Assembly (NCBI GenBank): GCA_947174325.1
Contig: CAMWIL010000006.1
Coordinates: forward strand, 1-35,353
DNA length: 35,353 bases
Reading direction: 5' to 3'
Source: an uncultured Clostridia bacterium
Lineage (GTDB): Bacteria; Bacillota; Clostridia; Christensenellales; UBA3700
A program made the translations under genes and the position numbers. Below the pieces are notes generated by a model that did not search any database, was not told the origin of the DNA, and saw only the letters and a program-made list of their open reading frames with translations. How positions within the stretch are numbered: position 1 is the first letter of the stretch; every line of letters starts with the position of its first letter. Below, piece by piece: positions 26,121 to 33,682 of this stretch.

Positions 26121-27857
26121 CTATTTTTTCATATTGTTTTGGGCAAGTTGGCTCATCATTATAAATCTCGCTTCCTCGTCGTTTTCGCTGTCGATCGCGT
26201 GAGTAAGCGCTCTTTTGCGTTTCTTGTTGCCCTCTTTGATTATCTTATTTATACAATCGTCAAAATACTTTTTGGCGATATCGTCTCCTATCTTGCTTCC
26301 CTCGTCAAGCACTGCGCGCACTTCCGCGTTTTCTTCTTCATGCGAAATAAACTCTTCCATAGTATTGTTTCCGCTGTCCTTTTTCGCTCTGTAAATATCG
26401 TACAAAGCTCTCTGCTTCGCGTCTACTATATACTGCGAAAGATCTATATCGCAGCTCACGTCTTCCACTCCGCCGAAAAGTCCGTAAAGCGCGTACCTTA
26501 CCGCTCTATCAAACGCCGACGCGCCCAACTTCACCTGTTCGGGCGGAGCGATCGCTCCCGCCGATTCGCTTACGTCCAACTGACGTCTTAAAGTATCCTT
26601 GCTAAGTCCCGTCTTTTTTGCGACGTATTCTATATACGCTTCGATCATTGCAGGATCTTCAAGCGGTTTTATTATCTTCATAGCCTCGACCGCGTATTTT
26701 CCCTTTTCCTGCGGCGAGGAAAGGTCGTACCCGCTTGCCAGAGTATTGAGTTTATGCTCAAAAAGCGGTTTGGCGTCCACGAGCAATTTTAGATAATTCT
26801 CTTTTCCGTATTTGCGAACGTACTCGTCGGGATCGAGCTTTTCGGGCAAACTGACAACGCGCACTTCAAGTCCCTGATTATATAGTATATCCAAACCTCT
26901 CATAGTGGCTTTTTGTCCCGCGCCGTCGCCGTCATAACATATTACCACTTTGTTGACGTATCTTCTGATAAGTTTCGCCTGTTCTTGCGTGAGCGACGTA
27001 CCCATAGACGCGATTGCGTTTTTCACCCCGCTTTGGAATAGCGAAATAACGTCCATGTATCCCTCTACAACGATCAGTTCGTTGACGGCGGTCTCCAACT
27101 TCAACCTCTTGACAGAGTGCTGTCCGAATATCTCTTTCGACTTATTGAACAAAACGGTTTCTCGAGTATTTTTGTACTTTGGCAAACTGTCGTCAAGCAC
27201 TCTTCCGCCGAATGCAACGACTTGTTTCAAGTTATTGATGATAGGCACTATCAATCTACCTGCCATAGTGTCGACAGCGTTTCCCGATTGTGTCGTATCG
27301 ACCAAACCCGCTTCCTGCATATTCTCTTTTGAATATCCCTTGGCGGAAAGATAAGCGACAAGTTGAGTTCTGCCTATCGAATACCCCAGTCCGAAGATCG
27401 TAGCAGTCTGCATACTTAATCCGCGCTTTGCCAAATATTCTCTAGCCGGCTTTCCCGCTTCGGAAATGAGATTTTGATGGAAATACGACGCGGTATCCCT
27501 CATCATCTCAAACAGCTTGTCCTTATGCTTTCTCAAATTTGAATTACCGTCGTTTTTTGAAAAATCAGGTACGGGCACATGATACTTGTCCGCCAGTATC
27601 TTTACAGCGCCCATAAAATCGGTATGTTCTATTTCTTGTACAAAAGATATAGCGTCTCCGCCTACTCCGCAACCGAAACAGTGATAAGACTGCGACTGCT
27701 CATACAAACAGAATGACGGAGTTTTTTCGTGATGGAAAGGACAACACGCCCATTTTTTGCTTCCCCTTTCTTGTAAAGATACGTATGGGGAAATAACTTC
27801 GGCTATGTCGATTTTTGATTTTAACTTTTCCAACCACTCGGAAAATACCTCTGCCAT
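26121..27857 (-). CDS. dnaG: DNA primase
   Basis: CPFHHEKTPSFCLYEQSQSYHCFGCGVGGDAISFV (zinc finger), VEGYMDVISLFQSG (TOPRIM), VVICYDGDGAGQKA. Confidence 0.97.
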   Translation of the reverse strand: MAEVFSEWLEKLKSKIDIAEVISPYVSLQERGSKKWACCPFHHEKTPSFCLYEQSQSYHCFGCGVGGDAISFVQEIEHTDFMGAVKILADKYHVPVPDFSKNDGNSNLRKHKDKLFEMMRDTASYFHQNLISEAGKPAREYLAKRGLSMQTATIFGLGYSIGRTQLVAYLSAKGYSKENMQEAGLVDTTQSGNAVDTMAGRLIVPIINNLKQVVAFGGRVLDDSLPKYKNTRETVLFNKSKEIFGQHSVKRLKLETAVNELIVVEGYMDVISLFQSGVKNAIASMGTSLTQEQAKLIRRYVNKVVICYDGDGAGQKATMRGLDILYNQGLEVRVVSLPEKLDPDEYVRKYGKENYLKLLVDAKPLFEHKLNTLASGYDLSSPQEKGKYAVEAMKIIKPLEDPAMIEAYIEYVAKKTGLSKDTLRRQLDVSESAGAIAPPEQVKLGASAFDRAVRYALYGLFGGVEDVSCDIDLSQYIVDAKQRALYDIYRAKKDSGNNTMEEFISHEEENAEVRAVLDEGSKIGDDIAKKYFDDCINKIIKEGNKKRKRALTHAIDSENDEEARFIMMSQLAQNNMKK

Positions 27858-28021: not shown

Positions 28022-31000
28022 TTACTTCTTCATAGCCCGTTGTTCTTTAAGATACTCATTGTACCTTTCTATTTGGTCTTCTCTAAGATCTACCATTTCT
28101 TTTGCCGTAGCCAATGCTTGCATATCTGCAACGATAAGTTCCGTCTCTTTGACTTTCACTTTAGTTCCGTCATTAGTAGCGTTACGGCGAATATCTTTCA
28201 TAAACTCGTCTTCCATCTTGAAGAGCGCAACCGTTGTGTCTTTCTTTATCGTAAGCTTCACAAGCGGATTGACTGAAGACTGTCCTAGTAATATAGAATA
28301 CGTCGATTTCTTCTCTTTGCACTTATCTTTGCTCAACGCGTAGGCTTTGAGAGTATCGAATATCTTCTTTTGCTTTGCAGAGAGTTTCGCGTAAGCCTCG
28401 TCAAGCGTAAGTCTAGGAGCGACTACCTTTGCCTTTGGCGCAGGTTTCGTAGCAGGTATCTCTACTATCTTCTCCACAACCTTTTCCACCTCGATAGGCA
28501 CTTCCTTGACCACTTCTTTTTCAACGATCTTCTCGACAGGTACTTCTACGACTTTCTCTACCACTTTTTCTACTTCGACAGGGACTTCCTTTTCCACTAT
28601 CTTTTCGACGGGAACTTCAACTATCTTTTCTACCACTTGCCGTTCACTAGATTGTTGATTTGCGGATAGTTCCAGTATCTTTTCCATCAACTTCTCTTGA
28701 TTGTCTAGTATACGTTTTATAGTTTCGTCATCATTATTTGCAACAGGTTGCAATTTGCTTGCAAGTCTATCCAATACTTCGTCGCTTACAGTAGTAGCCA
28801 CAACTTCTTTATGAGCGGGCTTCTCTGCAAGTTTTTTCATTATCGCTTTCTGACCCTCGATAAGATCTTTGATGACCTCGTCATTGGTCGATGCTTGTTG
28901 AGGCAAATACTGTTGGAAATTAGGCAACATCGCAGTCATAGTCTCAGATACTATTCCTCTTATCTCATCCGCGCCTAAGCCTTGCCCTGCGTATGCATAT
29001 CCGCCTTGTTGTCCATTGCCGTTAGAATTTCCGCCCATCATATGCATAAACATCATTTTCATATCTTCGTCGCGGCGTTGATTTTCTTCTACTCTTCTTC
29101 TGTTTTCAATATCCTTTTGATTACGCTCATATTCGTCCTTTGCGTCTTCGAGATCTCTTTGAGATTTCTTATATCCTCTCTTCTCTATAAGCATAAAGAC
29201 AAAACTCAACACTGCCAAGCCCATCAACACGCACGCTATTATCGTCCAATTCGTCATACTTAATCCGAATAGTCCCGTTCCGCTCACCGCATAGAACGTG
29301 TTGTATTTGCTCTCTATTGCTCGCTTATTCTCTTTCCTCTTATTCGCATAGCCTATGCCCTTACTTGTAAATATTATTATCAATATTATACTGATTACGC
29401 TGGCTATTACCTGCCACCATTCTTTCAAGACTTGTCCTATCTTATCAAAGTCTACTATACCGTCTTTGTCATCAGGATCAGTGTTAGGATCGTTTGGATC
29501 TTCCGGCAAATTCGGATCTTCTTCAAAGTCATAGTTTGGATTGTTTATATCCGATGGATCGCGCAATTCCTCGCCGGGTTTGACAGTGAATTCTACCGGC
29601 TCTGTATTTGCTTCTCCGTTGTCAAACTCAAAGTTGACGTTGTCTTTCAACACCGCTCTGATATAGAACGTTCCGCCTTTGTTCAAGTCCGAATACTCCA
29701 CCTTGTGCATATCCGCGTCATAGTACTCGTATTCAATACCTTGTTGCAACTGTATGCTCGTTAAATTGCGAAGTACCAGCGGTTTTGCCGTTGTATTCCA
29801 TTCGGTGGATATTATACTCCTCGTTATTGTAAATTGTAATTTCGTTTCTCCGCTCAACACTACTGACGAATTGTTAGATGACACCTCTACCCAATACGTG
29901 CCTACCGTTGTCGGCGCGCTATCTATCTTGTTAACTCCCGCGTCGCCCTCGTAATACGTAAACGTCAAGCTTCCCGTAGGCGTTCCGCTTGGGAATCTCA
30001 ACACAACGGGTTTGCCTGTGTATACGAACGAATTACTTGCTAGACTGACGGTTATCTCCGCAGCTCCTCCGCCTATGCTGAATACTGAAGAATACAAATC
30101 CGCTCCGCTTGGGAATTGGTAGTTTCCTTCATAGATACTTTGTAGTTTCGGCAACGCTTTATAATACTTTGTCTGCGTTGCGCTTACTTCTATCTCGTCT
30201 TCGGAGTACGGCGTATCGTTTATGATCTCGCCATCTCTATTTGTCTCGTAATACTCATAGTCTACTTTATCCGCTAACCTGCTATCCGAAAGCACTAAGA
30301 CTCTAAATGCCGTTCCGTTGCTGTCCTCAGCGTTTTTGTACTCCCAGTTGAGTTTTATCTCTACTGGTACGATCTCCCACGAAACCGTCCAAGTAAAGTT
30401 GCCATCATAACTATCCTCATCGCCTTGCTCGGGCAAGATATAGTTGTTTTCGTCAAATCCGTCTGCTATTTTGAATTGAACAGTTACGTCGCCGTAATTA
30501 TTTACTGCCGTTCCTTTGTCGTTTGCGCCCATTAACTCTCTGATTTCAAGTCCATTAGGCAAGTTTTCAAGACTCGGACTTTGCTGCGATCCGGTATATT
30601 CCAACTTGTTCAACCACTTCACTTCGGATAGATCAAACTTGGCTCTTTCTATCGTCCATTCGATTGAATACTCTTGGTTGTTCTCGGCTAGTTTGATTGT
30701 CGTTCTGTAAGTTCCCGCATCCTTGCCGTCCGCGCTTCCTTGCCCGCTTATTTTCTCAACCGTATATCCGCCGTCTAAGCTATATCCGTTTGGCAACTCT
30801 ACTTCAAATCTAAATTGTTCCCCGCTATACGTCAAAGTGTTGGAAAGATTTTTTACTCCCGTTTCGTTGAGTTCCGTTACCGTTCTGTAATTACTTCTTT
30901 CACTATTACCTTCATACAATTTCCATAGTATATTCGTTCTCTGTCCTGCGGGTAATACTGTAAGCGTAGGAGATGGCGTGTCGCCGTCTTTCTTAAAGTC

Positions 31001-33370
31001 TACCGTATAGTTCTTGTTTGTAGTCTTTACTCCAAAACTATAACTACCCTCAAATAGTCCGCCAAGGTTGCTTAGCTGTTGATTTGTCACTTGATATGAC
31101 ATAGAAGGCAATGAAGATGCGTCCAAACTTATCCCTTGGCTTACGTCTATATCCGTGTTCCCATACGGGATATATATCGTTATCGGTACTACGTCGCTTC
31201 CCAACGGCGCGCCGTTGACGTCAACAAATATATCCACCGATATGCTTGCCGTTCCTTCCGATATGCTAAACGCGCTGTTACTTCCTCCTCCGCTCGCTAC
31301 TATCTTCTCTATTACCAACTGCGCAGGAGTTACTTCTACCTCTATCTTAGGCGTAGATGCAAACTTGTAATTTATCGCCTGATCCGCCTTTATAGTAGCC
31401 ACCAATTCATACGTGCCTGCTGCTTGCGCGCTGACGCTGTACGGCGGTGAAGCAACGTTTATTCCTACTCCGTCATAACTCTCTTTCCATGACAATTCCA
31501 TTGAGTTGGAATCAAATCCGTCCAACTGAAATCTTACGTCATTTCCACCGCTATACGGTTTAGATTTAGCTCCTGTTATTGACGGATAAGCTATAGCCTT
31601 CTTATCTATTGTGAATGTTATTCGCTTTTCTCCCGTAGCAAGATCCGACCACATATAATCAGAATTATTTATTTTATACACTATTTCATACGTTCCCGCA
31701 TCTGTGGGCGCAGACGTCAACTTTGTATTGTCTTTATAATACGTCTCGCTGATTTCGCCTTCTTGTATCGCGTTTTGCAGCGGTGTATTATACCAAGTCT
31801 CTCCGTCAGGCGTAAGCGGTTGTCCCGTATACGTCTTACTGAAAGATTTTGGAGTTGTAAATAGATATTGCGTGTAGCTTCCCGTGATATTCTCAGAATA
31901 CACTTCTCCATTTATACTATCCGCAAAAAGCACCGTAATGCTGTAATCGCTTGCATTGACGTTGCTAGGTAAAGTAGCAGTCGCTACGCCGTTGTTAAAT
32001 GACGCCATAGCTTGATAAGCTACCGACCCGTTTCCGGATTTGTCAGTAAGCAAGAATATTGCGTTACCGCTCTGTCCCGATTTGGTTACGGTAACACTTC
32101 CGTTTGTAGCGGTGATATTCGGTTTTCCGGAAGAAAGCGCATTATAATTGACGTAATCGTCTGCCATCATATAGACCTTATATGCAGGCTTACCGTCCGA
32201 AGAAGCAATAGAACCGACAGAGGAAAACGTATTGCCGATAGAAGTCACGTTTGACGCCGTCGCATAAATCACCCTAGAAGGATCAAAGTTGAAAGCAGGT
32301 CGTATACCGAATGTTTGTGTCATATGCGTACAACCAAAAAATCCTTGTGTCGTTAACGCGCTTGCATGTTTTTCAGAACCGTTGTAATGTCCTACGTTAC
32401 GAAACCAAGTACTTGTTGCCAAAGCATTTGATTCTTTAAGATAATCGCCTCTTATGCTGCCGTGATTCGATCTATCGTCATATCCCGGCAAGCCTTCGCT
32501 ATCCGGCGTCCAATCAGGAAGTACTCTTGTACCGTAGACGAGTTTTGTACCGTCGCTCTGTAAATCATAGAATCCCCAATCAGCATTATTGGCATCGAAA
32601 TAATCAAGCAAAAAAAGTTTATCCTGAGTCGTCTCTATTACGGCTGTACCATTTACATGCGAAAAAGACGCCGCCTGACTTGCAAGTATCGTAGACGTAT
32701 ATTGACCTATTCCATCTCCCACCAAATCTACGGTAGTGAATGCCGGCGAAGCAGACGTAACTCTTCTCCAAAGTTTGGTATCATACTCGACTGAAGTTTT
32801 TATACTCTTGTGTTCTTTCTCGTTAAATATAATATTTATCCAGGCGTCGTCATCTGTTATTGTTTGATCAAGCGCCGCATTTCCACTGGGATTGAGATAA
32901 AGACCGCCGTTGAGCGCCGCCCTAATCTTGCTTGTGCCCCAAAACGCATAATATTGACTGGTATAATAAGCGTTATACTGCGACGTACCAATTTGATAGT
33001 CCGCATAAAGCAATAACGTAGTTCCGTCTCCGTATTTGGTATCGCCATTCGCCAACACTCGCCACTTAATTGCCCCATTACGCGCATAGCTACCGGTATT
33101 TCCATTTGTGCCTACGTCAAAATTCTTGCCAAAATAAATATACTCGTTCTGTCCGCCCGTAATGATCTCAGAAAAATGATCGTACGTCTCGCCCTTCTCG
33201 GTAAGATTAAGCACAGAAGCCATAACCGATGAAGCAGAATCAGCGCGCGCGTTGTCGTTTCTCTCTGTAAAAGACAAGTTTGGTATTGCCATTGCCAAAC
33301 ACAGACTCAATATAATTATCAATGCCGCTAAAGCAAAATATCCCCTTATTTTCTTCTTCCGTATATCCAT
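28022..33370 (-). CDS. Giant putative surface/transmembrane protein (DUF6273-like and MBG-like extracytoplasmic region, TM segments, coiled coil, VEKIVE-repeat, novel C-terminal domain)
   Basis: 1782-aa ORF; N-terminal hydrophobic signal/anchor (YFALAALIIILSLCLAMAIPNLSF); GAIKWRVLANGD...QTFGIRPAFNFDPSRVIYAT; repeated TYTGQPL / YTGKPVVL / EYTGSQQSP motifs; TM VIASVISIILIIIFTSKG and WTIIACVLMGLAVLSFVFML; C-terminal charged repeats. Confidence 0.85.
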   Translation of the reverse strand: MDIRKKKIRGYFALAALIIILSLCLAMAIPNLSFTERNDNARADSASSVMASVLNLTEKGETYDHFSEIITGGQNEYIYFGKNFDVGTNGNTGSYARNGAIKWRVLANGDTKYGDGTTLLLYADYQIGTSQYNAYYTSQYYAFWGTSKIRAALNGGLYLNPSGNAALDQTITDDDAWINIIFNEKEHKSIKTSVEYDTKLWRRVTSASPAFTTVDLVGDGIGQYTSTILASQAASFSHVNGTAVIETTQDKLFLLDYFDANNADWGFYDLQSDGTKLVYGTRVLPDWTPDSEGLPGYDDRSNHGSIRGDYLKESNALATSTWFRNVGHYNGSEKHASALTTQGFFGCTHMTQTFGIRPAFNFDPSRVIYATASNVTSIGNTFSSVGSIASSDGKPAYKVYMMADDYVNYNALSSGKPNITATNGSVTVTKSGQSGNAIFLLTDKSGNGSVAYQAMASFNNGVATATLPSNVNASDYSITVLFADSINGEVYSENITGSYTQYLFTTPKSFSKTYTGQPLTPDGETWYNTPLQNAIQEGEISETYYKDNTKLTSAPTDAGTYEIVYKINNSDYMWSDLATGEKRITFTIDKKAIAYPSITGAKSKPYSGGNDVRFQLDGFDSNSMELSWKESYDGVGINVASPPYSVSAQAAGTYELVATIKADQAINYKFASTPKIEVEVTPAQLVIEKIVASGGGSNSAFSISEGTASISVDIFVDVNGAPLGSDVVPITIYIPYGNTDIDVSQGISLDASSLPSMSYQVTNQQLSNLGGLFEGSYSFGVKTTNKNYTVDFKKDGDTPSPTLTVLPAGQRTNILWKLYEGNSERSNYRTVTELNETGVKNLSNTLTYSGEQFRFEVELPNGYSLDGGYTVEKISGQGSADGKDAGTYRTTIKLAENNQEYSIEWTIERAKFDLSEVKWLNKLEYTGSQQSPSLENLPNGLEIRELMGANDKGTAVNNYGDVTVQFKIADGFDENNYILPEQGDEDSYDGNFTWTVSWEIVPVEIKLNWEYKNAEDSNGTAFRVLVLSDSRLADKVDYEYYETNRDGEIINDTPYSEDEIEVSATQTKYYKALPKLQSIYEGNYQFPSGADLYSSVFSIGGGAAEITVSLASNSFVYTGKPVVLRFPSGTPTGSLTFTYYEGDAGVNKIDSAPTTVGTYWVEVSSNNSSVVLSGETKLQFTITRSIISTEWNTTAKPLVLRNLTSIQLQQGIEYEYYDADMHKVEYSDLNKGGTFYIRAVLKDNVNFEFDNGEANTEPVEFTVKPGEELRDPSDINNPNYDFEEDPNLPEDPNDPNTDPDDKDGIVDFDKIGQVLKEWWQVIASVISIILIIIFTSKGIGYANKRKENKRAIESKYNTFYAVSGTGLFGLSMTNWTIIACVLMGLAVLSFVFMLIEKRGYKKSQRDLEDAKDEYERNQKDIENRRRVEENQRRDEDMKMMFMHMMGGNSNGNGQQGGYAYAGQGLGADEIRGIVSETMTAMLPNFQQYLPQQASTNDEVIKDLIEGQKAIMKKLAEKPAHKEVVATTVSDEVLDRLASKLQPVANNDDETIKRILDNQEKLMEKILELSANQQSSERQVVEKIVEVPVEKIVEKEVPVEVEKVVEKVVEVPVEKIVEKEVVKEVPIEVEKVVEKIVEIPATKPAPKAKVVAPRLTLDEAYAKLSAKQKKIFDTLKAYALSKDKCKEKKSTYSILLGQSSVNPLVKLTIKKDTTVALFKMEDEFMKDIRRNATNDGTKVKVKETELIVADMQALATAKEMVDLREDQIERYNEYLKEQRAMKK
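28446..28640 (-). repeat. In-frame VEKIVE(K/V)xVPVE repeat tract
   Basis: Protein VEKIVEVPVEKIVEKEVPVEVEKVVEKVVEVPVEKIVEKEVVKEVPIEVEKVVEKIVEIP with matching degenerate DNA repeats. Confidence 0.9.
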
Positions 33371-33394
33371 TTTTTTACCCCGTTTTTTGTAGGG

Positions 33395-33420
33395 TCAGTA
33401 AAAGTGTACTTTTCCTGACT
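33395..33420. repeat. Near-perfect 26-bp palindrome in leader of the 1782-aa gene
   Basis: gtcagtaaaagt-gt-acttttcctgac; 11 of 12 arm positions pair; contains one arm of the inverted repeat pair 33400-33419 / 33509-33528. Confidence 0.9.
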
Positions 33421-33470
33421 CTGATTTCATAATCAAAATTCGCCATTATTAGCGATATTTATACATAATA

Positions 33471-33499
33471 AGTATACAATAAAGCAATGTCGAATTCAA
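33471..33499 (-). promoter_or_regulatory. Sigma-A-type promoter driving the 1782-aa gene
   Basis: Minus strand TTGAAT TCGACATTGCTTTATTG TATACT, 17-nt spacer, pointing to the ATG at 33370. Confidence 0.6.
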
Positions 33500-33508
33500 G
33501 AATTTTAG

Positions 33509-33528
33509 GTCAGGAAAAGTACACTTTT
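33509..33528. repeat. Second arm of perfect 20-bp inverted repeat flanking the promoter
   Basis: gtcaggaaaagtacactttt is the exact reverse complement of 33400-33419. Confidence 0.95.
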
Positions 33529-33651
33529 TTTGGAATTTTTTGCTATTTGTCGATTTTTTGCGAATTTTTTCACCAAAATTTTACAGTTATTAATAATAGT
33601 TAAGAAGATAATTAAAAAAATGCAATCGACTCTTTTCTCATAATTGATACA

Positions 33652-33682
33652 AAAATAGAGCGATCGACGATCGCTCTATTTT
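33652..33682 (-). terminator. Terminator of the SPOR-like protein gene
   Basis: aaaatagagcgatcg-a-cgatcgctctatttt, 15-bp perfect arms. Confidence 0.7.

Follow-up and report, generated by a model that had tools for sequence, protein, structure and literature searches.

Large surface-antigen repertoires under the control of many promoter inversions have been described in mycoplasmas and in Bacteroides. In the mpl/P35 system of M. penetrans every gene reportedly has its own switch. These lipoprotein genes undergo multiple promoter inversions carried out by a tyrosine recombinase (PMC8593674), and in B. fragilis a single small serine recombinase, Mpi, inverts many dispersed promoters of one genome (PMC5903667, PMC12632263). 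The C. difficile switches (cwpV and flagellar) are associated with RecV, which is a tyrosine recombinase (PMC5903667).

The element described here occupies positions 33394-33534 of the window, that is, the whole stretch of 35,353 nucleotides that was analysed, which comes from an uncultured Clostridia bacterium. From sequence comparison we consider it very probably a phase-variable promoter inverton, flipped by a small serine recombinase at two 26-nt sites. As in the mpl system of M. penetrans, the genome holds a family of paralogous surface genes, each with its own short invertible-promoter element, and surface variation would be the common outcome. However, the evidence here points to a serine recombinase in place of the tyrosine recombinase of M. 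penetrans, the switched proteins are not small lipoproteins but transmembrane proteins of about 1300-1900 aa, and the host belongs to the uncultured Clostridia. In its working the system would resemble that of Mpi by analogy, with one small serine recombinase proposed to act on many dispersed promoters. Mpi is nevertheless known mainly for capsule polysaccharide promoters, and the enzyme considered here falls far below the Mpi cut-off and has its own site sequence. C. difficile, a member of the same bacterial class, also has inversion upstream of large surface-protein genes, but its switches number only a handful and their repeats mostly differ, while here a family of about 20 members has one site type. 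The arrangement also recalls the gut invertons of the PhaseFinder type, in which a promoter lies between inverted repeats near surface genes and invertases are paired with invertons; in that survey the median for Clostridia-like genomes was three invertons per genome (PMC11892184), whereas the present genome has about 20 that belong to a single type. The layout is that of M. penetrans and the proposed working that of Mpi, with differences in the enzyme clade, the site and the host. Through a serine invertase of another kind, the present system would bring such repertoires to a clade of uncultured Clostridia with small genomes, each genome holding about 20 switches.

The element upstream of the 1782-aa protein gene

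Two 20-nt arms lie at 33400-33419 and 33509-33528, the coordinates given in a preliminary description of this DNA; one is the exact reverse complement of the other, and 89 nt lie between them. When the window was searched for the arm with up to three mismatches, only these two and a palindromic re-read at 33394 were found, where shuffled sequences lead one to expect none. The minus-strand promoter that had been described between the arms is also present. It consists of TTGAAT (33499-33494) and, after a spacer of 17 nt, TATACT (33476-33471), spans 33471-33499 as a whole and is aimed at the gene of the 1782-aa protein (28022-33370, minus strand). This gene starts at 33370, 29 nt past the proximal arm, and the 29-nt leader in between (33371-33399, minus strand) is kept among the paralogous loci. 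A GGGG run located 5' of the ATG in this leader is a possible ribosome-binding site.

Each arm is part of a longer, 26-nt site. The proximal site, GTCAGTAAAAGT-GT-ACTTTTCCTGAC (33394-33419), is a near-palindrome (22 of 26 positions) with homologous proximal sites in other copies, and the distal site, GTCAGGAAAAGT-AC-ACTTTTTTTGGA (33509-33534), is less palindromic (16/26) and includes a flank, TTTGGAATTTTTTGC, that is kept in the paralogous elements. Both have a 12-2-12 layout, as do sites of the serine-invertase type, with two half-sites of about 12 nt around a 2-nt core that matches the core of the partner site.

On the far side of the element there is a perfect 15-bp hairpin (33652-33682) with a T-run on both strands, which is terminator-like and folds at -18.2 and -21.0 kcal/mol; the terminator scan did not report it, as the loop limits of the scan exclude it. 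It would terminate the transcript of the neighbouring gene, and also the one running outward from the element when this is OFF.

The 1782-aa protein has an N-terminal signal or anchor, a variable ectodomain, two predicted transmembrane helices (aa 1321-1339 and 1377-1395) and a conserved C-terminal tail. Searches against Pfam and NCBIfam gave only a sub-threshold MBG domain. The proteins behind the other elements are built in the same manner: they begin with a hydrophobic anchor, continue with a long variable region and two predicted transmembrane helices, and end in a tail that is conserved; these paralogues align poorly with the protein of the window over aa 100-500 and best past aa 1300. 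The products of the controlled genes are variable and probably anchored in the membrane as surface proteins, and we infer that the 1782-aa protein is exposed at the surface and subject to antigenic variation. The gene downstream of it (26121-27857) encodes a DnaG-type primase, so that the switch sits in otherwise housekeeping surroundings.

Orientation of the elements in this genome and in related genomes

The genome to which the window belongs (G000; the window is its contig C6) is assembled as 1.68 Mb in 114 contigs and is 94.4% complete. The genome-wide motif search that the preliminary description had proposed yielded 18 exact copies of the arm, including five complete pairs at an identical start-to-start spacing of 109 nt. 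With a query of 190 nt the flanks aligned in one direction and the segment between them was inverted, at 88-91%, at four other complete loci (C16, C23, C32 and C80). The 89-nt invertible segment (33420-33508) is in the ON orientation in the window and in the opposite one at these four loci. More loci belong to a second subfamily, whose inner half-site is a variant, GTCAGTAAAAGT or GTCAGTAAATGT, and the total for this genome is estimated at 19-22 elements when the halves at contig ends are counted. Among the elements with readable orientation, scored by eye, the window copy and the one at the end of C67 are ON and 18 are OFF.

A short, multi-copy sequence with terminal inverted repeats could also be a MITE-like mobile element inserted in either direction upstream of many genes. 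We regard this as extremely improbable and have rejected it, since the copies remain homologous outside the repeats, on either side and always in one orientation, the gene leader included, and the promoter segment always lies between the proximal gene side and the distal side.

Many contigs begin or end at an element, as repeats or mixed orientations would be expected to cause, which is a warning that these loci break the assemblies of such genomes. Beyond the distal arm, the starts of C9, C29, C86 and C103 (L014, L017, L023 and L025) have in common a dispersed repeat with gtgttttgtaattatttgctcatagtttttggttta, seemingly unrelated to the element.

The exact arm was also found in G007 and G015, both uncultured Clostridia genomes. 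The more general site GTCAGNAAAAGTNNACTTTT is present in 14 of the 46 genomes of the family (a reversed control gave no match), and outside the family the arm motif had one single match among 297 genomes of the order. Site cores are mostly AC in G000, G007 and G015, and AT in the other genomes with listed sites. From five genomes 65 complete elements were collected, and every one of them contains the promoter TTGN3-N17-TA[TC]ANT, where shuffled sequences would give 1.0. The two arms carry the same core dinucleotide (AC, GT, AG or AT) in 65/65 elements; as the core varies mostly between genomes, with only G000:C4 (GT) and G015:C2 (AG) departing from the usual core of their genome, both with matched arms, this agreement is suggestive but not a powerful test. 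Where the two arms differ, the mismatches are never at positions 11-16, as is expected if exchange takes place at the core; most of them affect position 17, in the outer half-site, and this half-site remains with the flank. Ten of the complete elements are ON, 50 are OFF and five are unclear, the gene side in G004 and G006 having been set by the distal-flank motif, with a secreted-protein start read there in only some loci. The elements of these two genomes (L180-L219) are related; their segment is shorter, mostly 68-69 nt, and their AT core is palindromic, so that the sites would have no intrinsic polarity.

The comparison of orientation across relatives, also proposed in the preliminary description, gave both orientations with constant flanks, in G000 as well as in the relatives. 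The closest case is that of two contig ends of G015 (C22 and C24), in which the flanks agree at 34/34 and 35/35 positions and the 90-nt segments are exact reverse complements; other pairs of the same locus in both orientations were sought and this was the only one. Most simply, one locus has probably been caught here in both states. Two recent, near-identical paralogues are also possible, because the overlap is short (about 34 nt per flank) and identical segments can also be found at other paralogous loci.

The preliminary description had proposed two readings of the repeats, a phase-variable inverton and a pair of operators for one dimeric regulator around a fixed promoter. The first is strongly supported by the opposite orientations in homologues, by the element of G015 that was probably caught in both states and by the serine invertase gene that abuts elements in relatives (see below). 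What had suggested the operator pair is that each arm is itself semi-palindromic (AAAAGT-N2-ACTTTT) and that the arms are nearly symmetrical about the promoter, but the semi-palindrome is better read as two half-sites for a recombinase dimer flanking the 2-nt core. Moreover, operators would leave unexplained the opposite orientations at loci with conserved flanks, the exactly inverted pair of G015, and the matched variable cores together with the adjacent invertase genes. This reading is not needed, and we reject it as the main explanation and hold it to be very unlikely, although an extra regulator may bind the arms besides the recombinase.

A candidate invertase and the proposed switch

The window had been described as lacking an invertase gene, and this holds for the whole assembly, in which HMM and protein searches detected no significant serine recombinase or Resolvase-domain match. 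The recombinase search that had been suggested therefore came out empty for the serine class and positive for the tyrosine class, with four tyrosine recombinases in G000. Relatives encode a serine recombinase of about 200 aa (PF00239, E 1e-27) whose nearest PDB structures are Sin and Tn3-type resolvases; against the Mpi family NF009949 it scores 46.2 bits, where the curated cut-off is 272. An orthologue is present in 13/46 family genomes, and 11 of these 13 belong to the 14 site-bearing genomes (Fisher p = 1.8e-6, a value that overstates independence since the species are related). At seven loci of G015, G007, G002 and G003 the distal arm and the gene are only about 100-160 nt apart, and the promoter faces the gene at all seven (L170, L171, L178 and L179 in G002/G003; L149, L152 and L150). 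At four of the seven, the gene read on the other side of the element encodes a surface protein of the type considered here (MDIRKRKLKG...). G015 and G007 have only one or two invertase genes each and many elements. This ~200-aa serine recombinase is the likely enzyme inverting these elements.

In G004, G005, G006, G011, G012 and G014 no site was found in the up to 700 nt searched upstream of the invertase gene. A relative of the invertase is present in G022:C25 and G031:C2 (L175 and L177), genomes that have no exact site, and in G031 a diverged site-like sequence lies 207 nt from this gene, perhaps reflecting changed specificity.

Tyrosine recombinases drive the switches of M. penetrans and C. 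difficile (PMC8593674, PMC5903667), and it could be argued that one of the four found in G000, where no serine recombinase was detected, flips the segment. Nevertheless G015 has the sites and a single tyrosine recombinase (355 aa), and likely counterparts of this 355-aa enzyme also occur in site-free genomes. It is the serine invertase that tracks the sites and whose gene abuts the elements, and a 12-2-12 site with a variable yet matched 2-nt core fits serine exchange. A tyrosine recombinase as the inverter is thus disfavoured, as the sites do not track these enzymes, and we consider it quite unlikely.

The lack of an invertase gene in an assembly that is 94.4% complete could also mean that the enzyme has been lost in this strain and that a once-active inverton is now locked, or inverts on an evolutionary time scale only. 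Against this, the arms are identical within each of the 10 complete elements of G000 (10/10), and the many contigs broken at elements are what mixed orientations or repeats would cause. In addition, G001 and G013, which are also fragmented or incomplete, have sites and lack the gene, which suggests loss in assembly. We therefore find a locked state unlikely, and most simply the absence of the invertase from G000 is an assembly gap.

If a serine recombinase is the inverting enzyme, the small Resolvase-domain protein of about 200 aa would probably bind the two 26-nt sites as dimers, cut at the central dinucleotide and invert the 89-nt segment. In the assembled (ON) orientation the promoter would drive the 1782-aa gene; in the OFF orientation it would point through the distal arm into the intergenic region, and the transcript would probably end at the hairpin mentioned above. 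That transcription follows the orientation of the segment is something we infer. With about 19-22 elements, nearly all of them OFF, the genome would hold a repertoire of surface antigens of which probably few members are expressed at once; the bias towards OFF suggests such sparse expression, and cells probably shuffle which surface protein is displayed.

The position of the invertase gene opposite an element whose promoter is directed at it, in 7/7 cases, suggests a feedback loop between the invertase and the switch. We are inclined to propose, tentatively and as a possibility somewhat short of probable, an antigen-switching system across the genome of an uncultured Clostridia genus, in which giant variable membrane proteins are governed by some 20 promoters of one type, each invertible on its own, and the gene of the invertase lies opposite one of these promoters, so that turning its surface gene ON would turn the invertase OFF and the system would be self-limiting. 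If this is true, such a switch shared by the invertase and a surface gene could enforce sparse expression. The system is compact, consisting of an enzyme of about 200 aa and 26-nt sites, and it offers a natural experiment on core specificity (AC, GT, AG and AT) and on how an invertase and its switch feed back on each other.

One element of G015 (L104, G015:C2:213883-214017) has an AG core and is flanked on one side by a serine invertase gene, which its promoter faces, and on the other by a heavy-metal ATPase-like gene in place of a surface-protein gene.
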